Below, one piece after another: positions 3,271-21,856 of a stretch of DNA of 32,188 nt. The stretch comes from an uncultured Porphyromonadaceae bacterium (GTDB lineage: Bacteria; Bacteroidota; Bacteroidia; Bacteroidales; Muribaculaceae). The stretch is from contig CAMWNH010000021.1 of NCBI GenBank assembly GCA_947175605.1, positions 1 to 32,188 of the forward strand, given 5' to 3'. Position 1 is the stretch's first letter. Each line of letters opens with the position of its first letter. Both the position numbers and the translations under genes were made by a program. A model generated the notes under the pieces. The model was not told the DNA's origin. It ran no database searches and saw only the letters and a list, made by a program, of their open reading frames with translations.

Positions 3271-4365
3271 TCAGTTTTCAAGATACCATTCGTATAGTCT
3301 TCTTATGCCGTCGGGAAGCTCCACCGTATGTCTCCAGCCAAGTTTGTGGAGGCGAGTCACATCGCATAGCTTGCGCATTGTGCCGTCGGGCTTGGTCGAA
3401 TCCCATTCGACGGTGCCTTCGAACCCAACTGTTTTCCGAATCTCCTCGGCAAGGTCGGCAATAGTGGTTTCAAGTCCCGTGCCCACATTGATGTGACAGT
3501 TGCGTACGGGCCGGCCTTTCGCACGGCACTCGTCGGCGAGCTCTTGGAAGCTTACGTTGAGAAGAACATGCACGGAAGCATCCGCCATATCCTCACTCCA
3601 GAGAAATTCGCGCAGCGGACGTCCTGAGCCCCATAAACTTAGCGTATCGCTGCTGATTCCGCGCCGGCCGAGTTCTGCTTTTATCTCATCCATGGATGAG
3701 CTGTCGGCATCGATACCGGCAACGGGGCGCTTGCGGAGGTCGGCACGCAAGTCGTCCTCGCGACCTTCGCGCAGCATACGCGCGAGATGCATCTTGCGAA
3801 TCATTGCGGGCAGGACGTGGGAGTTATCGAGATGGAAGTTGTCGTTTGGCCCGTAAAGATTGGTCGGCATCACAGCCACATAGTCCGTACCGTGCTGAAG
3901 GTTTATGGCCTCACACATTTTCATGCCGGCGATTTTGGCAATGGCATAAGGCTCGTTCGTGTATTCCAGAGGGGACGTAAGCAGGGCCTCTTCCTTGATA
4001 GGCTGTGGGGCCTCACGCGGATAGATACACGTGCTGCCGAGAAATAGAAGGCGCTTGACTCCATGGCGCAGAGATGCACCGATTACGTTCTGCTGTATTC
4101 CCAGATTTTCAAGTATGAAATCAGCGCGATAGGTGGAGTTGGCCATGATTCCGCCGACGTGTGCGGCGGCAAGCACTACGGCATCAGGTTTTTCCTCTTC
4201 GAAAAAACGTTCCACGGCCTCGGCGTCGAGCAGGTCGAGTTCAGCATGCGTGCGGCCTATGACATTTGTGAAGCCGCGTCGTTGTAGATTGGCCATAATG
4301 GCCGAGCCCACGAGCCCGCGATGGCCGGCAACGTAGATTTTAGCGTCCTTTGCAAGCATGGTCAT
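3271..4365 (-). CDS. fcl: GDP-L-fucose synthase
   Basis: Bifunctional 3,5-epimerase/4-reductase that converts GDP-4-keto-6-deoxy-D-mannose to GDP-L-fucose with NADPH, the last step of the de novo GDP-fucose pathway. Extended SDR fold. Seen: dinucleotide-binding GHRGLVGS (residues ~14-21), the STCIYP segment (~111-116), catalytic YxxxK (Y140, K144 in YAIAK), and [12 protein letters not shown]. At 364 aa it is longer than the ~320 aa enterobacterial enzyme. The extra length is mostly an Asp/Arg-rich insertion at about residues 199-240 before the conserved [12 protein letters not shown] motif; I recall similar length in Bacteroidales homologs. It follows gmd with a 4-base ATGA overlap, so the two consecutive steps are translationally coupled. 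GDP-fucose would feed capsule, O-antigen or protein O-glycans. Confidence 0.96.
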
Positions 4366-5423
4366 TCTACGGCAATGAGTTTCATATCGGCTTCCGTCAT
4401 GATGCGTACAAGTTCGTCGAACGAAGTCTTGCGCGGATTCCAGCCAAGGACTTCACGGGCTTTTGCCGGATTGCCGAGAAGCTGTTCGACTTCTGCGGGA
4501 CGGAAAAAGCGGGGATCGACTTCCACGAGGACGCGACCTGTGGCCGTGTCTATGCCCTTTTCATCAAGGCCTTCACCTGCCCACCGCAGTTCGATTCCGG
4601 CATAACGGAATGCGAGAGTGGCAAATTCGCGGACGGTATGATATTCACCGGTGGCAATGACGAAGTCATCAGGCTCGGGCTGCTGGAGTATGAGCCACAT
4701 GCACTCGACATAGTCGGCGGCATATCCCCAGTCGCGTAATGCATTAAGGTTGCCGAGATAGAGCTTATCCTGCTTTCCCTGCGCGATGCGCGATGCGGCG
4801 AGAGTGATTTTACGGGTGACGAAGTTTTCGCCGCGGCGCTCGCTCTCGTGGTTGAAAAGAATGCCGTTGGCGGTAAACATTCCGTAACTCTCGCGGTAGT
4901 TCTTCATGATCCAGAAGGCATACAGCTTTGCCACGGCATAAGGCGAACGAGGATGGAAGGGAGTCGTTTCGCTTTGGGGCACTTCCTCGACTTTGCCGAA
5001 CAGCTCGGAGGTGGAGGCCTGATAGATGCGGCAGTGCTTTTCGAGGCCGAGGATGCGCACGGCTTCGAGAAGACGCAGGGCTCCAGTGGCATCGGTATCG
5101 GTGGTAAACTCAGGAACATCGAACGATACCTTCACATGGCTTTGGGCTGCGAGGTTGTAGATTTCGTCGGGCTTAACTTCGCCGATGATGCGGATGAGCG
5201 AGGACGAATCTGTCATGTCGCCGTAGTGGAGTGTGAGCAGGCGCTTGTTGTGCATGTCGCGTACCCATTCGTCGAGGTACAGGTGCTCGATACGACCGGT
5301 ATTGAACGAAGAGCTGCGGCGGAGGATACCATGGACCTCATAGCCCTTTTTCATGAGAAATTCAGCCAGGTAGGAGCCGTCCTGACCTGTTATGCCGGTG
5401 ATTAATGCCTTTTTTGCTGCCAT
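4362..5423 (-). CDS. gmd: GDP-mannose 4,6-dehydratase
   Basis: Converts GDP-D-mannose to GDP-4-keto-6-deoxy-D-mannose, the branch point toward GDP-L-fucose. NADP-dependent extended SDR enzyme. Seen: GITGQDGS cofactor loop (residues ~10-17), the [13 protein letters not shown] substrate region, the catalytic set T138 and E140 in STSELFG, and Y162 and K166 in YAVAK. The family hallmark [18 protein letters not shown] is also present. Length 353 aa is normal for the family. The gene sits five bases after the HAD gene and overlaps fcl by four bases, placing it third in a probable four-gene operon. Confidence 0.97.
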
Positions 5424-5427
5424 ATGT

Positions 5428-6129
5428 TCAGAGGACTTTGTTTCGTGTTATGAGAGGTATTGCATCCGTAAGCGAGAGAAGGACCGTTTCAGGTCGATTC
5501 TCCGGCGGCACGGAATGAAGGTTGCGGGAATGAATGTTTGTTTGAGTGGAATCAGCGAGCATGACCGTGCGCCATCCGAGCTTGCGGGCCTCGCGGAAAT
5601 CCTTGGCGGGATTATCGCCGATATAGAAGCGTTGGACTGCATCGGGATATAGGCTCTCGAGGGTCCGGAAGGGGAGGGGCCTTAGCTTATCTGCGCCCAG
5701 TTCTTCGCTTATAATCACAGCTTCCGGCGCAAAGAAGCGCTCGAGTCCGAGAGCTTCAAATTTAAGTCTTTGACCTATTGAGCGACCGTCGGTGATGAGG
5801 GCAAGATTTATTCCGGCGGCTTGCAGTTGCGAAAGTACGTCTTCGGCCTCGGGGCTTAGGCTAATGTCGGGCTTATGACTGCGGTACACTTCGATTATCT
5901 CGCCGATGGCGATGCCATCCGGGGCGAGAAGCTTGTGCAATGCATCGAAGGCTTCCGGACCACGGACGGGACAATTATCCATTGCTTGAAGGAGGCCGGA
6001 TTCGTCAAGCCCTAAACGCCGTGCGAAATGACGAGCGACAGCGCGACGCCCGGAAAGCACATAGTCGCATTCATGGAAGAGGGTATCATCCAAGTCGAAG
6101 GCGGCAAGTATGTGCTTCATGCGCTTCAT
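5428..6129 (-). CDS. HAD-superfamily hydrolase (sugar-locus phosphatase-like)
   Basis: Haloacid dehalogenase-like phosphatase. Seen: motif I DLDDT (D12 nucleophile, D14), an alpha-helical cap region, motif II ITDGRS, a lysine in the ADKLRPLP region, and motif [15 protein letters not shown], i.e. all four HAD motifs, with ordinary length (233 aa). The substrate is not evident. Because it is wedged between a nucleotide-sugar aminotransferase and gmd and overlaps the aminotransferase stop by an ATGA junction, it probably dephosphorylates a sugar phosphate or a related intermediate; that is inference. An alternative start three codons in (residue 4, Met) cannot be excluded, but the ATGA coupling favours the start used here. 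Confidence 0.85.
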
Positions 6130-7265
6130 TTACAGCAGGCTTTAAGCTCGCGGCATACACGCAGGATATCTTCGTCCGTCAAAGAAGATCCGCTTGGCAG
6201 GCATAGGCCATTTTCGAACAGTCGCCGCCCTGTTTCGGCATTGCCGTAATAGGGATATTTTTCAAAAACCGGCATCATGTGCATGGGGCGCCACAACAAT
6301 CGGGTCTCGATGTTTTTATCAGCCAAAGCCACGCGTATTTCGTCGGGAGTACAGCCTGTGAGCTCGGGGTTTACCTGAATGGTGGAGAGCCAGAAATTGG
6401 AGTTGAACTTATCCGAGGGATTCATCTGCACGCTGATGCCGGGCACGCAGGCAAGCTCGCGGGCATAAATATCGTGGATGGCGCGTCGCCGGGCAAGCCT
6501 CTCGTCCAGCACATCGATCTGTCCGCAGCCTATGCAGCCGGAAATATTGCTAAGACGGTAGTTATAGCCGATTGTGGTGTGGTAATAGTAGGGCCTGTTT
6601 TCGCGGGCCTGTGTGGCAAGGAAAAGCACCCTTGCGGCACACTCCTTGTCGGGACAGATGAGGGCGCCGCCGCCGGATGTAGTTATTATCTTGTTTCCGT
6701 TGAAGCTGAGCGCACCATATTCGCCGAATGTACCTGCTTTGCGACCGCTGTATTCGGAGCCGAGTGCTTCGGCGGCATCCTCGAGAACAGGAATTCCGTA
6801 TTTCGATGCCACGGCCATTATCTCGTCCATCTTGGCAGGCATGCCGTAAAGATGAACCACGACAATGGCTTTAGGGTATCGGCCCGTGTATTTTTTCCTG
6901 TCGATGATCGCTTCTTCGAGCACCACGGGGTCGATGTTCATGGTCTCCGGTTCGGAGTCCACGAAAACGGGGATCGCCCCCTGATAGCAAATCGGATTGC
7001 AGGAAGCGGAGAAGGTGAGATCCTGACATATGACTTCGTCATCGCGGCTCACACCGAGCATGATAAGACCGAGGTGTATGGCGGCAGTGCCGGCGCTAAG
7101 AGCTACAACGCTTTTGTTCTCGCCGAGGAAATGCTGAAGTCGAAGCTCAAACTCATTGACGTGCGGGCCTAAGGGAACTATCCAGCTGCCTTCAAAAGCT
7201 TCGCTGATATATTTTTGTTCTGTCCCGCTCATGTGGGGCATTGAGAGAAGAATCCGCTTTTCCAT
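6126..7265 (-). CDS. DegT/DnrJ/EryC1/StrS-family sugar aminotransferase (PglE/Per-like)
   Basis: PLP-dependent nucleotide-sugar aminotransferase, expected to transfer an amino group from glutamate to a keto-sugar. Seen: ALSAGTAAIHLGL cofactor loop (~residues 55-67), LTFSASCNPICYQGAIPVFVD (~83-103), VLEDAAEALGS (~160-170) and the Schiff-base lysine K192 in SFNGNKIITTSGGG. Length 379 aa is normal. The pattern resembles the PglE (UDP-bacillosamine) and perosamine-synthase branches; no PglF dehydratase or PglD acetyltransferase is in the window. The neighbouring gmd product (GDP-4-keto-6-deoxymannose) is the substrate of perosamine synthases, so GDP-perosamine is one possible product, but sequence alone cannot choose. 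It is the first gene of the operon, 28 bases downstream of a good sigma-ABfr promoter, and overlaps the HAD gene by 4 bases. Confidence 0.88.
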   Translation of the reverse strand: MEKRILLSMPHMSGTEQKYISEAFEGSWIVPLGPHVNEFELRLQHFLGENKSVVALSAGTAAIHLGLIMLGVSRDDEVICQDLTFSASCNPICYQGAIPVFVDSEPETMNIDPVVLEEAIIDRKKYTGRYPKAIVVVHLYGMPAKMDEIMAVASKYGIPVLEDAAEALGSEYSGRKAGTFGEYGALSFNGNKIITTSGGGALICPDKECAARVLFLATQARENRPYYYHTTIGYNYRLSNISGCIGCGQIDVLDERLARRRAIHDIYARELACVPGISVQMNPSDKFNSNFWLSTIQVNPELTGCTPDEIRVALADKNIETRLLWRPMHMMPVFEKYPYYGNAETGRRLFENGLCLPSGSSLTDEDILRVCRELKACCK

Positions 7266-7393: not shown

Positions 7394-8197
7394 ATGGAAG
7401 CAAGTGAAAAAACAATCGAGATAGAAGGTATAGACCTCCATTACCGCGTTGGTGGAGATACTTCTCCGGACGCACGTCCGGTGATAATCCTTCATGGCTG
7501 GGGCTGTCGGGCATCGACTATGAATCTGTTCGAGCAGACGGTTCTGGATCGCTGCCCGGGCACGGCGGTGTATAATCTCGATCTGCCGGGATTCGGGAGT
7601 TCTTCGGAACCCGCGGAGGTTTTCGGTATTGAAGATTATGTGCGAGTGCTTGAGACCTTTGTGCATCGTCTGGGCCTGCTCAATCCCATTCTGATCGGTC
7701 ACAGTTTCGGCGGACGCATGAGCATCCTCTATTCCTCGCGCAATGCTGTTGAGCGAGTGATACTTGTGGATGCCGCCGGTATCAAGCCGCGCCGCTCGCT
7801 GAAATACTATGGCAAGGTATATTCGTTCAAGGCAGCAAAGCGTCTTCTGCCCTTTATCGTCGGGCGTTCCCGGGCTTCAAAAGTAATAGATCGTTGGCGC
7901 GGGAAGGCCGGTTCGAGCGATTACGCATCTGCGTCGCCGCGCATGAGGGCAATCCTTAGCAAGGTCGTGAACGAGGATCTGACATCGTGCCTGCCGAAAA
8001 TCAAGGCTCCCACGCTGCTTATCTGGGGCGAAAACGATACAGCGACACCCCTGCGTGATGCGCGTCTGATGGAAAAGCTGATTCCCGATGCCGGCCTCGT
8101 GAGCTATCCCGATTGCGGGCATTATTCCTTCCTCGACCGCCCTGCGCAGACGCGTGCTGTGGTCGAGTCTTTCATCAATTCTCCAAAGAAAGCTTGA
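7394..8197 (+). CDS. Alpha/beta-fold hydrolase
   Basis: Serine hydrolase of the alpha/beta superfamily. Seen: oxyanion-hole segment ILHGWGCRAST (~residues 32-42), nucleophile elbow GHSFGG with Ser104, acid Asp215 in WGENDTATP, and His243 in CGHYSF, so the triad is complete. No signal peptide, so it is probably cytoplasmic. Length 267 aa is typical. The substrate is unknown. The stop is only 7 bases before the MurF-like gene and the Ddl gene follows 12 bases after that, so the three are almost certainly one operon. The hydrolase may therefore act on an ester, amide or thioester in the same pathway as the two ligases, for instance releasing or editing an aminoacyl intermediate. That role is inference; members of this superfamily are too broad to assign further. 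Confidence 0.9.
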   Translation: MEASEKTIEIEGIDLHYRVGGDTSPDARPVIILHGWGCRASTMNLFEQTVLDRCPGTAVYNLDLPGFGSSSEPAEVFGIEDYVRVLETFVHRLGLLNPILIGHSFGGRMSILYSSRNAVERVILVDAAGIKPRRSLKYYGKVYSFKAAKRLLPFIVGRSRASKVIDRWRGKAGSSDYASASPRMRAILSKVVNEDLTSCLPKIKAPTLLIWGENDTATPLRDARLMEKLIPDAGLVSYPDCGHYSFLDRPAQTRAVVESFINSPKKA

Positions 8198-8204
8198 AAT
8201 AAAA

Positions 8205-9815
8205 ATGTTCTGGACTGTATTCACCGTTTGTACACTGGTGTTTGTGATCTTCAACCTATGGATGGAGATGCGTCGCGATATGATGATGCTTCAGCAGAAT
8301 TCGTATCGCAACGAGCGATATGTGCGCTGGCTCAAGTCTTCGGGCGACACAACCTCGACATGGCGCCTGTTCGGCCTTATCGTTTTTCTCGTGTGCTTGT
8401 TTCCGATGGCATCGTTGCATTCGGCCGATATTCTGATGGCTGTTTTCGGTGTTTCGCATGGCTGTTCCTTGCTGAAAAAACAGAAAACTTACAAGTTGCC
8501 GCTGAAGGTCACCCGGCGAGTGATGCGTCTGCAGGGTGCTTTCATACTGCTGTGCCTTATCGTGATAGCAGCCGCGCTCCTGCTTTTCTGCGCGAAGGGG
8601 GCTGCGGTTGAAACGTGGTGCTTTACGGCAGCCGCTGCAATCATGGGTTGCTATTGCGCGTCACACATTCTGACGATGGCATCCAACGTGATTCTGCGCC
8701 CCTGGGAGAAGGCTATCAACCGCGGATATTACAACGACGCTGCACGCCGCCTCGCTTCGATGCCGGACCTGAAAGTAATCGGTGTGACAGGTAGTTACGG
8801 CAAAACTACAACCAAGCACTATCTTCAGCACATACTGTCGGAGCAGTTTGACTCGCTGATGACGCCGGGCAGTTTCAACACAACGCTGGGCGTGGTGCGC
8901 ACGATTCGCGAACATCTTAAGCCTTACCACCAGATATTTATCTGCGAGATGGGCGCCAAACAGACGGGCGATATACGGGAAATATGCGAGCTGGTGCATC
9001 CTTCGGCGGGTATTATTACTGCAGTGGGTCCCCAGCATCTCGAGTCTTTCAAGACCATTGAGAACGTTCAGGCCACGAAGTTTGAACTCGCGGATGCTAT
9101 TCCTGCGGACGGCATCGTGCTTGTGAACAACGATTTCGAAAAGATAGCCGACCGACCGGTGACGAACTGCCGGTGCGAGAGATATGCAGTGGAGCATCCC
9201 GAGGGTGCCGACTGGGTGGCGGAAGACGTGGAGTATTCGCCCAAGGGGACGTCCTTCACTGCTGTGCGTCGTGCAGACGGAGTGCGCATTCCGCTGGTGA
9301 CCAAGCTTTTGGGCGCCTGCAATATCTCCAACCTGCTTGCGGCTGTGGCAATGGCCAAATATCTGGGCATGGACGATGAGAAAATCCGTCGTGCGGTGGC
9401 CCGTATCGAGCAAGTAGAACACAGACTGTCGATCAAACGAATTCCCGGCGGTCTCAATATTCTCGATGATGCGTTCAACTCCAATCCTGTGGGCTCGAAA
9501 ATGGCTCTTGACGTTCTGGCCGGAATGCCCGGGAAGCGCATCCTCGTCACACCCGGCATGATCGAGCTGGGTGCGCAGCAGGAGGAGCTGAATCAGGCTT
9601 TCGGACGCCACGCTGCGGCGTGCTGCGATGTTGCGATCGTGGTGGGTGCATACAACCGCGAGGCCATCGTGAGCGGATTACGCGAGGCCGGATTTCCGGA
9701 GAGTTCTCTGCACACGGTCGATACTTTCCGCGAGGCTCAGGCACTGCTGGCAAGCATAAGCTCGCCGGGCGATACGGTTCTATACGAAAATGATCTTCCC
9801 GACACATTCAAATAA
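8205..9815 (+). CDS. Membrane-embedded MurF-like Mur ligase
   Basis: ATP-dependent amide ligase of the Mur family, closest in motifs to MurF, which adds D-Ala-D-Ala to the UDP-MurNAc-tripeptide. Seen: about five hydrophobic segments within residues ~1-165; then P-loop GVTGSYGKTTT (193-203, K200), MurF-type PGSFNTTLGV, EMGAKQTGDI and VGPQHLESF, presumed carbamylated lysine K292 in ATKFEL, the GACNISNLLAA hinge, and LDDAFNSNPVGSKMAL with PGMIELG in the C-terminal domain. Missing: the MurF N-terminal domain that binds the UDP part of the substrate, here replaced by membrane helices. The acceptor is therefore more likely membrane-bound than nucleotide-bound. I chose ATG 8205; an in-frame GTG at 8154 would overlap the hydrolase gene and add 17 residues with no family resemblance. 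Followed 12 bases later by ddl. Confidence 0.85.
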   Translation: MFWTVFTVCTLVFVIFNLWMEMRRDMMMLQQNSYRNERYVRWLKSSGDTTSTWRLFGLIVFLVCLFPMASLHSADILMAVFGVSHGCSLLKKQKTYKLPLKVTRRVMRLQGAFILLCLIVIAAALLLFCAKGAAVETWCFTAAAAIMGCYCASHILTMASNVILRPWEKAINRGYYNDAARRLASMPDLKVIGVTGSYGKTTTKHYLQHILSEQFDSLMTPGSFNTTLGVVRTIREHLKPYHQIFICEMGAKQTGDIREICELVHPSAGIITAVGPQHLESFKTIENVQATKFELADAIPADGIVLVNNDFEKIADRPVTNCRCERYAVEHPEGADWVAEDVEYSPKGTSFTAVRRADGVRIPLVTKLLGACNISNLLAAVAMAKYLGMDDEKIRRAVARIEQVEHRLSIKRIPGGLNILDDAFNSNPVGSKMALDVLAGMPGKRILVTPGMIELGAQQEELNQAFGRHAAACCDVAIVVGAYNREAIVSGLREAGFPESSLHTVDTFREAQALLASISSPGDTVLYENDLPDTFK

Positions 9816-18136: not shown

Positions 18137-19483
18137 ATGGATAACAAGACATTCAGGCGCATACTGGGCGAGCGGCTCGGACGAAGTGCAAAGGACGTAG
18201 ACACGCTTGTGGGTGCGCTTTCGGGGCTGCTTGTGGAGAATTCACAGGTTCTTCGGGTGCTTGCGGTGCCGGGTTTCGGATCGTTCGTGCCCGTAAAACA
18301 CGAGGAACAGATTGTAAGGGATCTCTCGTCGGGCAAGCGTATATTGCTTCCCCCCGAGATTGTGCTGGAATATATTCCGGGAAGCGCCATGCGTCGGATG
18401 GTCGATCCTACGGCTCCGATACCATCGGATGCGCCTGATGCACCCGGTGGCTTGATGACACTGCCGATGGCCGCCGAGACACTGTCGGAGACATGTGCGA
18501 TAGATGCAGAGGCTGCGGAGCGTTTTGTTTCGGAGTTTTTCCGTCTGATAGAAGAGGAGGATGGACGCTCGGGCGAAGTGATAATTAAGGGGATCGGTGA
18601 ATTTAGGGGATTGATTTTCAAGCCTGATCAGGCTCTGGCCGAGGAAATCAATCAGCCTTTCTCGATGTTCGAACCTGTGGAACTCGAAGAATCCTTGAGC
18701 GATAGCGATCTTGAGAATCCGGATTTCAATTCCACCGAAAATGTTGAGGAGGTATCTTCCGCTGCTGTGGTGGAGGAGGCTGAAGTTCCTGTAGAGAAAG
18801 ACGAGGAGACGACGTGTGAAAGCATAGACGAGCCTGCAACAATAGGCGAAGTTGTTGAGGAGTCCGAAACGGCAAGCGAAGCTTTTGATGAATCCGAAAC
18901 AGCGGGTGAAGAAGCCGAGGCAGAAGTTGAGGAAGGAACCGAGGAAGAAGCAGATAGATGCGAAGCCGAGGCGATTCCGGAAACGGACGAAGAGGACGTG
19001 GAGCCGTCGCGCGGAAGCAATGCGTGGCTGATGGCTGCGGTTATCCTGGGCGTACTGTTCGCGTTCGCCGCAGGTTTTGTCTCCGGACGTTATTCCGTTG
19101 TGCCTACCATGCATACGATGCCTGTTGTGGATACGGTGTACGTGTCTGTGCCGGATACGGTGAAAGCTGTTCCGGCAGAGATAGAATCCGGCTCCGAAGC
19201 CGTGGCAGATGAAGCACCGGAGGTGCGGGAACCGGTGTATGATACAGTCACTCCTACGCGCTACCTTGCTACGATGGCAAGGCAGTATTATGGCCGGATG
19301 GAATATTGGGTGTATATTTACAAGGCTAACGAAGACAAGCTTGCCAATCCCGATAAGATCCGCCCCGGCACACGAGTGGAGATTCCACCTTTCGAGAGAT
19401 ATGCAAAATCGACGAATGATTCGGTGAATCTCGAGGCGGCACGCAGGCTTTCTGAAGAAATCTATGCGCCGTATCGCCGATGA
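18137..19483 (+). CDS. Tandem HU-domain protein with acidic linker, transmembrane helix and LysM-like C-terminus
   Basis: Membrane protein combining DNA-binding-like and cell-wall-binding-like parts. Seen: residues ~1-90 form an HU/IHF-like domain (FRRILGERLG, VPGFGSFVPVKHEE, ILLPPEIVLEYIPG). Residues ~110-180 look like a second, degenerate HU-like unit (VIIKGIGEFRGL, INQPFSMFEPVEL). Residues ~185-292 form a very acidic low-complexity stretch with short ESETA-type repeats. One transmembrane helix follows at ~295-318, then a Pro/Val-rich spacer, and residues ~370-417 are a LysM-like module (YLATMARQYYG, YIYKANEDKLANPDKIRPGTRVEIPPF). Predicted topology: HU part in the cytoplasm, LysM part in the periplasm. 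Related HU-plus-LysM/SPOR fusions occur in Bacteroidetes, with function not established to my knowledge. It could link nucleoid and peptidoglycan, but DNA binding by these HU units is unproven; they may bind protein instead. Confidence 0.85.
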   Translation: MDNKTFRRILGERLGRSAKDVDTLVGALSGLLVENSQVLRVLAVPGFGSFVPVKHEEQIVRDLSSGKRILLPPEIVLEYIPGSAMRRMVDPTAPIPSDAPDAPGGLMTLPMAAETLSETCAIDAEAAERFVSEFFRLIEEEDGRSGEVIIKGIGEFRGLIFKPDQALAEEINQPFSMFEPVELEESLSDSDLENPDFNSTENVEEVSSAAVVEEAEVPVEKDEETTCESIDEPATIGEVVEESETASEAFDESETAGEEAEAEVEEGTEEEADRCEAEAIPETDEEDVEPSRGSNAWLMAAVILGVLFAFAAGFVSGRYSVVPTMHTMPVVDTVYVSVPDTVKAVPAEIESGSEAVADEAPEVREPVYDTVTPTRYLATMARQYYGRMEYWVYIYKANEDKLANPDKIRPGTRVEIPPFERYAKSTNDSVNLEAARRLSEEIYAPYRR

Positions 19484-19633: not shown

Positions 19634-19676
19634 GTCTTTGACGTTGCTATAAGGACGTTAAAGACTCTTTTGTTTC
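19634..19676 (+). terminator. Intrinsic terminator after tRNA-Arg
   Basis: Arms GTCTTTGACGT (19634-19644) and ACGTTAAAGAC (19655-19665) pair over 11 positions with one G-T pair and a 10-base loop. They are followed by TCTTTTGTTT (19666-19675). Good stem plus T-rich tail, 23 bases past the tRNA. Confidence 0.75.
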
Positions 19677-19737
19677 GCTTAGGAATTATTAGCTTGAATC
19701 CTAAACATTTGTTGAGGATAAAGAGATGTAAATTGAT

Positions 19738-19745
19738 TATTTTTG
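19738..19745 (+). promoter_or_regulatory. -7 element TATTTTTG ahead of the receptor-like gene
   Basis: TATTTTTG matches TAnnTTTG. A TTTGTTG lies at 19708-19714, so the gap from TTG is 23 bases, slightly longer than the usual 19-21. The ATG at 19772 would follow a ~20-base leader. This supports the shorter start used for the receptor-like gene. Confidence 0.5.
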
Positions 19746-19771
19746 CCGCCGAAAATCAATCAATCTTATCA

Positions 19772-21856
19772 ATGGGAAGTAAAACGGTATTATTGCTCTT
19801 GCTTGCAAGCGGGTTCATAGCGCAGGCACAGACGGCGGAAACGGATTCTGTGAAGACACAGGAGCTTGAAGAGGTTGTTGTGGAGGGTAGAAACCAGAGA
19901 CTCGGCGCTGAGGTGTCGACATATGTTCCAACGACACGACAGAAAAATGCGGCACAAACTGCCGTAGACCTTCTGAAGCGTATGGCTATCCCGCAAATTA
20001 GAATCACACCGAATGATAATATTACGGATCTTGCGGGCAAGAGTGTTGATATTTTCATTGATTTTCTTCCTGCAAGTAACGAGGATCTGCAGGGCATGCG
20101 AATGCAGGACGTGAAGAGGGTGGAGTATTATGACTTTCCGAGCGATCCGCGTTTCCAGGGTAAGGCCCATGTGGTGAACTTCGTTATGCAGAAATACTTG
20201 TACGGAGGATATGTGAAGGCCTTCGGGTGGGAGAATTCGAGCAATGCAGGTCAGCTGAGTCTCTACGGCAAGTTGCAGTACAAGCGCATGATCTTCGATG
20301 TGGCTGCCGGTGGTTTCTATAGTAGCCAGAAGCATGCGGGGGCTGATACGTACGAGCAGTTCCGTCTGCCACAGGCCGACGGAACGGTAAAGGAATTTGA
20401 GCGCAACTATATTCAGGATAAGGGAAAGATGCGCAGGAATCTTTACTGGCCCACGTTCAAGGCTCTCTATTCAACAGACAGGATAAGTATGCAGAACGTG
20501 ATAGGAGCGAGTTTCGATCGTACGCCATATGACAGGCGTGAGGGCTATGTGGCTTATATGCCGGAAATATCGCCTCGCGCTGATTTCATGCAGGAGTCGT
20601 CGAGCAGGGTAAATTCGCTTTCATATAACGGATATTGGAATTTTATACTGAACGACAGGAACACCATCCGGTTCTCTCCGACTTATGCTTATTCGCATAC
20701 GAACAGCGCGAGTGTGTATGATGAGAATATGAGGGGTGGATATTACAATGGAGCGCTGGATGATTCGCATCAGTTCAGGGGCGATGTCACATATTCACAT
20801 TCATTCGGAAAGTGGGGCACGCTGAACGCTATGTTGCAGACTATCGTTGTCTCGAATAACACGAGCTATTCAGGAACAGCTACGCAAACGGATAGAGCGC
20901 GTACGTATCGTGTGGGTCCGGGCGTTCAGTATAGCCTTTCGAAAGGGAAGTTCTATGGTCTTGCCGGTTTCGGATATCATTGGAACCGAAACGAGTTTCA
21001 GGATTTCAAGGAAAATTCCGCTGCGCCATGGATAGATCTATCGCTGCAGTACTCGCCAAACGACCGTCATTCGATGCGCGGAGAATTCCATCACATGAAG
21101 TCGATTCCGAATTCGAGCTATCGTTCGTCCGCCATCATACAGAGCAATCCTCTGATGAGCTATACAGGTAATCCAAATCTCGTGGCATACGGAAGTTATG
21201 ACGTAGGACTGAATTATTCTTTTATCCCCTGCAACAAGTTCAGCCTCTCGGCTTTCGCATCGACTTGGATTGTGGATAATCGTTACGTCTATGATTATGA
21301 ACCTACACCGACCGGTATTCTCCGGACGATAGTGCAGCCCGGCGGTGGATACTCTAAGTGGGATTACGGCGTATATGCTTCTTTAAGGCTACTTGATCGC
21401 CAACTGCAGCTGAGTGCTCAGCTCAACGCCAATTCCGTGCACAACGGGGCTCCGAACAATTACGACAGGACTCACCTCGTGTATGCTTTTCAGGCGACCT
21501 ATTATTATAAGTACTGGAACTTCTCGGGGATTTATTACTCTCCACAGGGTTATTCGGACGGATGTATGGTAGGAACGTGGATGAAAACAAAGGCATACTA
21601 CTCGCTTTCGGCGGGATGGTCGAATTCCTCGTGGAATATCAATCTGATCGTGGCAAATTTTGCAAGATGGAACTGGCTAAGTGATGAAAGCGAGATGCAT
21701 AGTCGCTACTACGACAAGATTGAGCGGACATACTCGATAAATGACCATGCTTGGACACGACTGTCCGTGACATATACGTTCGGATTCGGCAAGAAGGTGG
21801 AGCAGGGTGATGAGGCCTCGCAGCAGTCCGGCGCGGGATCCGGAATTTTGAAATAA
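19772..21856 (+). CDS. TonB-dependent receptor-like outer-membrane beta-barrel protein
   Basis: Predicted outer-membrane protein for TonB-linked uptake or a related barrel. Seen: signal peptide MGSKTVLLLLLASGFIAQAQ (residues 1-~20), a TonB-box-like stretch ELEEVVVEGR (~30-39), a plug-like region to ~residue 140 (TAVDLLKRM, VDIFIDFLPAS, MRMQDVKRVEYYDFP, VVNFVMQKYLYGGYV), then a long beta-rich part with alternating aromatic residues to a terminal TYTFGFGKK strand. A short tail follows (GDEASQQSGAGSGILK). No N-terminal carboxypeptidase-like domain and no SusD partner next door, so it is not a classic Sus pair. At ~694 aa it is shorter than many SusC proteins (~1000). Start set at ATG 19772 because a frame opening 102 bases earlier has no signal peptide and overlaps the promoter element. 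Ligand unknown. Confidence 0.85.
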   Translation: MGSKTVLLLLLASGFIAQAQTAETDSVKTQELEEVVVEGRNQRLGAEVSTYVPTTRQKNAAQTAVDLLKRMAIPQIRITPNDNITDLAGKSVDIFIDFLPASNEDLQGMRMQDVKRVEYYDFPSDPRFQGKAHVVNFVMQKYLYGGYVKAFGWENSSNAGQLSLYGKLQYKRMIFDVAAGGFYSSQKHAGADTYEQFRLPQADGTVKEFERNYIQDKGKMRRNLYWPTFKALYSTDRISMQNVIGASFDRTPYDRREGYVAYMPEISPRADFMQESSSRVNSLSYNGYWNFILNDRNTIRFSPTYAYSHTNSASVYDENMRGGYYNGALDDSHQFRGDVTYSHSFGKWGTLNAMLQTIVVSNNTSYSGTATQTDRARTYRVGPGVQYSLSKGKFYGLAGFGYHWNRNEFQDFKENSAAPWIDLSLQYSPNDRHSMRGEFHHMKSIPNSSYRSSAIIQSNPLMSYTGNPNLVAYGSYDVGLNYSFIPCNKFSLSAFASTWIVDNRYVYDYEPTPTGILRTIVQPGGGYSKWDYGVYASLRLLDRQLQLSAQLNANSVHNGAPNNYDRTHLVYAFQATYYYKYWNFSGIYYSPQGYSDGCMVGTWMKTKAYYSLSAGWSNSSWNINLIVANFARWNWLSDESEMHSRYYDKIERTYSINDHAWTRLSVTYTFGFGKKVEQGDEASQQSGAGSGILK

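Follow-up and report, generated by a model that had tools for sequence, protein, structure and literature searches.

A MurF-type ligase embedded in the membrane as the probable replacement of canonical MurF in a family of Bacteroidales

We analyzed a 32,188-nucleotide (nt) stretch of DNA (contig CAMWNH010000021.1 of assembly GCA_947175605.1; hereafter the window, meaning the whole stretch) from an uncultured bacterium of the family Muribaculaceae, and focus on TM-MurF, a MurF-type ligase predicted to be embedded in the membrane (Table 1). Its gene lies between those of an alpha/beta hydrolase and a D-Ala-D-Ala ligase (Ddl), separated by gaps of 7 nt from the end of the hydrolase gene and 12 nt from the start of the Ddl gene. 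Judging from the gene content of this and related genomes, TM-MurF very probably is the D-Ala-D-Ala-adding ligase of the cell and stands in for canonical MurF, with an all-helical membrane domain in the place where MurF carries its substrate-binding domain 1.

Table 1. Features of the TM-MurF locus, with positions in the window
Feature	Residues	Position	Strand	Basis or remark
Alpha/beta hydrolase (ABH), 267 amino acids (aa), putative partner		7394..8197	+	PF00561, E 1.9e-26
TM-MurF, MurF-type ligase embedded in the membrane, 536 aa		8205..9815	+	ATG start
N-terminal membrane domain, all-helical, replacing MurF domain 1	1-184	8205..8756	+	AlphaFold2 models, hydropathy, conservation across phyla
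Motif 1, QQNSY (QLNSY in Clostridia, QLKEY in the candidate phyla radiation, CPR)	30-34	8292..8306	+	Q30 and Y34 invariant in the alignment
Motif 2, consensus KxPLxxTxRVxR, positive loop, predicted cytoplasmic	97-108	8493..8528	+	T103 invariant
Invariant Pro166, last membrane helix	166	8700..8702	+	alignment
Mur ligase middle (ATPase) domain	194-384	8784..9356	+	PF08245 (Mur_ligase_M), E 1.9e-37
Mur ligase C-terminal domain	406-526	9420..9782	+	PF02875 (Mur_ligase_C), E 4.7e-12
Class-specific tail ENDLPD, where canonical MurF has KGSR	528-533	9786..9803	+	
D-Ala-D-Ala ligase (Ddl), 395 aa		9828..11015	+	NF002528, 341 bits against a cut-off of 262

Domain 1 of MurF binds the UDP part of the substrate. 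The original prediction, made from the sequence of the window, held that TM-MurF has lost this domain while keeping the motifs of catalysis, and both halves of the claim were borne out: Pfam identifies the middle and C-terminal domains only, with no N-terminal Mur domain at E ≤ 0.1 and no match to a C-terminal alanine racemase domain, and structure prediction, the check proposed at the time, models residues 1-184 as all helix, with no alpha/beta MurF domain 1. The length originally given for the N-terminal region, about 165 residues, was close, although the last helix extends to about residue 184. The best NCBIfam match of the protein is the MurF model TIGR01143, at 228.3 bits, below the curated cut-off of 288.6, and its ligase domains align with solved MurF structures. 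The catalytic assignments made earlier were likewise correct, in that K200 of the P-loop, K292 at the carbamyl-lysine position and DDAFNSNP (residues 421-428) align with K111, K202 and the DDSYNAN motif of Escherichia coli MurF.

The AlphaFold2 model of the whole protein (pLDDT 93.1, pTM 0.84, from 43 sequences) places helices at residues 2-31, 36-46, 52-65, 71-93, 104-128, 135-151 and 153-184, ahead of the first strand at 190-195, and the membrane domain predicted alone has the same helices (pLDDT 95.9). Hydropathy, in 19-residue windows scoring at least 1.6, peaks at about residues 1-22, 50-81 and 104-138; the chain would span the membrane 4 or 5 times. Among 43 aligned homologues from Bacteroidota, Clostridia and Patescibacteria (42 of 56 homologous loci plus the protein of the window), Q30, Y34, T103 and P166 are invariant and K97 is conserved in at least 90%; since these invariant residues extend across three phyla, the domain is a conserved module and not a product of chance hydrophobicity. 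The loops that hold the two motifs are rich in lysine and arginine, with 6 such residues in 22-52 and 7 in 91-106, the latter free of aspartate and glutamate. By the positive-inside rule, loops of this kind should face the cytoplasm, so both motif loops should share a compartment with the ATP-dependent ligase part. Foldseek found no PDB fold match for the membrane domain at E ≤ 0.001, and its best VIA match reached Z 4.7; weak matches such as these do not prove a new fold. With the whole TM-MurF model as query, some VIA alignments begin at residues 29-105, so that VIA by itself cannot exclude similarity to domain 1, and we relied on the all-helical model instead.

Six residues (K200, T201, E248, H278, K292 and N308) are common to TM-MurF (n = 31, 95% threshold) and canonical MurF (n = 14, 90% threshold). 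Other positions have switched between the two classes, from N137 in canonical MurF to T226 in TM-MurF, from G359-D360 to P450-G451 (TPG at residues 449-451, where canonical MurF has L-G-D) and from K432 to E528, the last being glutamate in 97% of the 31 TM-MurF sequences and lysine in all 14 canonical ones. These class-specific switches may mark sites at which the handling of substrate by TM-MurF differs from that by canonical MurF. In a tree of 54 ligase parts, all 31 TM-MurF sequences form one clade (support 99/96), separate from canonical MurF and from the fusions of MurF with alanine racemase (MurF-Alr); two truncated canonical sequences (can_G124 and canB_G085) were omitted from the tree and the residue comparison. 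Because the outgroup branches are long, we are unsure of the root of the tree and of the sister group of TM-MurF.

The TM-MurF clade is deep and spans Bacteroidota, Clostridia and Patescibacteria. Counted from the list of matches, the architecture is present in 56 of 59 sampled genomes of the window's family, its own genome included; one of the 56 copies (G029) is partial at a contig end, and the 3 genomes that miss it (G010, G016 and G024) are only 71-82% complete. This recurrence, together with the occurrence in other phyla, rules out TM-MurF as an artefact or a chance product. In the sample of 96 Patescibacteria, 9 genomes had a match above the MurF cut-off, a subset had frames of TM-MurF length, and unsorted frames with unusual N-termini, 400-470 aa long, occurred as well. 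A literature search of titles and abstracts, with preprints and most subscription papers outside its coverage, retrieved no description of a membrane MurF.

The genome of the window is 98% complete and has no canonical MurF above the cut-off; its other Mur-type ligases are MurE, MurD, MurC, a MurF-Alr fusion and two proteins whose sequences read as FolC-like. Across 99 genomes of the family, 94 carried TM-MurF only (91 matches of TM-MurF length counted by eye, plus G163, G183 and G203, confirmed separately), 4 carried canonical MurF only, none carried both, and 1, just 62% complete (G207), carried neither. The 4 genomes with canonical MurF above the cut-off (G143, G165, G184 and G217) belong to one genus and lack a full TM-MurF; in G202, a fifth genome of that genus, both TM-MurF and the hydrolase are present and canonical MurF is missing. 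In G143, G165 and G184, the gene of canonical MurF is divergently oriented relative to that of a different Ddl, which shares about 26% identity with the Ddl of the window; the G217 piece contained no such Ddl. G165 and G184 additionally encode lone membrane-domain copies of 161-162 aa (L141:5473-5961 and L142:5427-5912), next to genes read as IleRS, DksA/TraR and LspA-like, at the site where G202 keeps the hydrolase, TM-MurF and Ddl; these copies are either a remnant or a free-standing protein.

A comparable distribution was found in the clostridial family of Anaeromicropila populeti (G108), a cultured species with TM-MurF and without canonical MurF. In this family, canonical MurF exceeded the cut-off in 105 of 120 genomes, and no TM-MurF-type match was listed among these 105, in a list reaching down to about 135 bits. 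The remaining 15 comprise 10 genomes with the TM-MurF type and without canonical MurF, one with a partial canonical MurF (G316) and 4 with no good MurF (G238, G243, G250 and G323). Such presence and absence counts come from related genomes and do not represent independent events. The mutual exclusion of the two ligases in these two families, genome by genome, argues that the job of TM-MurF is that of MurF itself and that any difference may lie solely in the form of the acceptor; on genome content, TM-MurF appears to fill the D-Ala-D-Ala-adding slot.

The order of genes in TM-MurF operons is mostly hydrolase, TM-MurF, Ddl. Of 54 TM-MurF loci with enough flank, 40 have the hydrolase gene as their immediate upstream neighbor in the same orientation, and Ddl is immediately downstream in 41 of the 52 that could be tested. 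The Ddl of the window is the only Ddl-like match of such size and score in its genome, the other PF07478 matches scoring 35-43 bits in frames that measure 1078 and 420 aa, and its closest solved structures are D-Ala-D-Ala ligases. The CPR loci are arranged differently, with LysRS and SerRS (identities read from sequence), the hydrolase, TM-MurF, sometimes DegT, and then FemAB, joined in some loci by FtsQ; this is a cell-wall setting for TM-MurF without an adjacent Ddl. The DegT aminotransferases adjoin TM-MurF in some of these loci (L056, L058 and L060), perhaps by chance. Scans for promoters and terminators performed near chance and were not used.

The hydrolase is probably a cytoplasmic Ser-His-Asp enzyme: its N-terminus, judged by eye, has no hydrophobic segment, and the triad Ser104, Asp215 and His243 is identical in all 49 best-matching loci. 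We assessed its co-occurrence with TM-MurF by genome-wide searches in two sets, 27 genomes with TM-MurF and, from the clostridial family, 20 of the 105 with canonical MurF. An orthologue of at least 134 bits was present in 26 of the 27 (the exception being G114), in some cases unlinked to TM-MurF (about 83 kb away in G127, on another contig in G105), and in none of the 20 genomes with canonical MurF only, where the best match had 25 bits. Within the window's family, it was present in all 6 TM-MurF genomes tested, the copy of G203 being interrupted by an internal stop, and absent from all 4 genomes carrying canonical MurF; it was also found in G079, of another family, and three Bacteroidales with canonical MurF have a paralogue of 60 bits at most. 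Since the hydrolase is found genome-wide with TM-MurF and not with canonical MurF, it would be part of the TM-MurF route and dispensable where canonical MurF operates; it appears to be tied to the way TM-MurF operates and not to the MurF step as such.

All Mur ligases use ATP to form an acyl-phosphate, which is then attacked by an amine. By this chemistry, TM-MurF would activate the carboxyl of the third residue of the stem peptide, and D-Ala-D-Ala, most likely supplied by the Ddl encoded in its operon, would attack the acyl-phosphate. The replacement of the UDP-binding domain by a membrane domain points to a lipid-linked acceptor, so that MraY, and perhaps MurG, would act ahead of D-Ala-D-Ala addition, and the conserved charged loops at the boundary of that domain would suit MurNAc-tripeptide carried on lipid I or lipid II, the pyrophosphate being held where the membrane domain meets the ligase domain. 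The hydrolase, we guess, would clear or edit a by-product, or supply a substrate in its reactive form, at the same membrane site. There are partial precedents: passages of PMC6113224 describe MurT as a Mur ligase that lacks domain 1 and acts on lipid II, and passages of PMC9603463 indicate that tripeptide can enter the wall of Staphylococcus aureus when MurF is short. Taken on its own, the proposal that the acceptor is lipid-linked MurNAc-tripeptide is, on balance, probable. The full reading, in which a D-Ala-D-Ala-adding TM-MurF replaces canonical MurF, uses that acceptor and works with the hydrolase in its route, is the one we favor, with reasonable but measured confidence. The original suggestion of a different acceptor at the membrane thus stands in part, as it agrees with the presence of a membrane domain, with the conserved, positively charged loops of that domain and with the MurT precedent, whereas the job remains that of MurF and the difference may be confined to the form of the acceptor.

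Several observations weigh against this reading. The swap with canonical MurF would be compatible with a lipid-linked and a UDP-linked acceptor alike; 11 of 52 loci have no downstream Ddl and 14 of 54 no hydrolase directly upstream; G114 has TM-MurF and no hydrolase at all; and replacement is not universal, both MurF types being present in 10 of 39 TM-MurF genomes, all of them Clostridia (the count took in the genomes of 39 of the 56 homologous loci). Alternatively, TM-MurF might be a MurF tethered to the membrane, with UDP-MurNAc-tripeptide still as its substrate; its membrane domain would then serve only as an anchor near MraY, and the UDP part would be left unbound or be held by a partner, for instance the hydrolase. 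The genome swaps, which imply the same cellular job as canonical MurF, and the alignment with solved MurF structures agree with such an enzyme, but the UDP-binding domain is gone, the invariant polar residues Q30, Y34 and T103 would be needless in a mere anchor, and a pure binding partner would hardly keep its catalytic triad whole in every one of the 49 loci; we consider this explanation unlikely, though it deserves to be taken seriously. That the donor has changed as well, the operon making and attaching D-Ala-D-X while the hydrolase disposes of the ordinary precursor in the manner of VanX and VanY in vancomycin resistance, is very improbable. The flanking hydrolase and Ddl could be accommodated by it, and the switches N137/T226, D360/G451 and K432/E528, which affect canonically conserved positions and in part the C-terminal domain (K432 to E528, G-D at 359-360 to P-G), could reflect an altered donor. 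Yet Ddl exceeds the cut-off of the NCBIfam D-Ala-D-Ala ligase subfamily while the VanA, VanB, VanC and VanG models fall far below theirs, the hydrolase is a PF00561 protein and not a VanX or VanY, and the CPR loci have no adjacent Ddl.

The MurF-Alr fusion offers another candidate for the MurF of these cells, in which case TM-MurF would add some other amino acid or serve another polymer. The fusion is present in the genome of the window (G000:C28, locus L005), in many members of its family, in several of which the MurF half is full-length (about 220-275 bits), and in Bacteroidales outside the family. In the window's own genus, however, neither the N-loop nor the YNxNP motif survives in the MurF half of any of the 6 genomes looked at (L005 and L125-L129), whereas the racemase half is retained, and the branch of the MurF half measures 2.47 compared with 0.29 in a sister genus; the ligase half is thus apparently decaying and evolving fast there, and we reject the fusion as the real MurF of that genus. 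Furthermore, the fusion persists while TM-MurF and canonical MurF swap and so is not the swap partner, TM-MurF adjoins the only Ddl of the genome, and in Clostridia, genomes that have TM-MurF and lack the canonical enzyme yield no further MurF above the cut-off. Overall, this assignment of roles is improbable.

MurF is regarded as an enzyme that is universal, essential and soluble, and as a drug target; a conserved alternative system would, if true, constitute a second solution to its step. Genome annotations would then miss or misname the MurF of whole common gut lineages, inhibitors directed against the UDP site of MurF should spare bacteria with TM-MurF, and the textbook order, with the pentapeptide completed ahead of lipid I, may have exceptions. 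That Muribaculaceae-like gut bacteria, part of the Patescibacteria and some Clostridia rely mainly on the alternative route is a tentative extension, which we advance with considerable doubt. The natural swaps between TM-MurF and canonical MurF open the question to complementation.

Elsewhere in the window, positions 3271-7265 of the reverse strand encode a sugar-nucleotide set consisting of a LegC-type aminotransferase, a HAD protein, a 4,6-dehydratase and an epimerase. On the forward strand, positions 18137-19483 encode a protein of 448 aa in which a bacterial DNA-binding (HU-like) domain is confined to the first 89 residues, and positions 19670-21856 hold an open reading frame of 728 aa with no Pfam match at 1e-5.

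Among known systems, MurF (TIGR01143; PDB 1gg4 and 4cvm) provides the closest solved structures to TM-MurF by sequence and fold, and the two have in common the middle and C-terminal domains, the catalytic residues and, putatively, the reaction and cellular job, whereas TM-MurF differs in the all-helical membrane domain that replaces domain 1, in its separate clade, in its class-specific residues and in its hydrolase companion. MurT of the GatD/MurT complex (PDB 6h5e and 9sqj), which is among the fold matches of TM-MurF at Z 22-23, resembles it in lacking domain 1 and, having a membrane-bound acceptor and a hydrolytic partner according to the same passages of PMC6113224, would probably resemble it in these respects too. 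MurT, however, has only a short N-terminus, its model scores 31.5 bits on TM-MurF against a cut-off of 800, and its partner GatD is a glutamine amidotransferase, for which there is no gene beside TM-MurF in the window, the direct neighbors being the PF00561 hydrolase and Ddl. The MurF-Alr fusion (PRK11930) likewise represents a second MurF-like ligase within the same Bacteroidota genomes, but it has domain 1 (the profile being matched from position 1), no membrane domain and a clade of its own (support 100/100). Finally, the hydrolase of the window shares its fold and Ser-Asp-His triad with PF00561 hydrolases, PDB 6i8w being its best solved match, and is set apart from them as a distinct orthologous group tied to TM-MurF.
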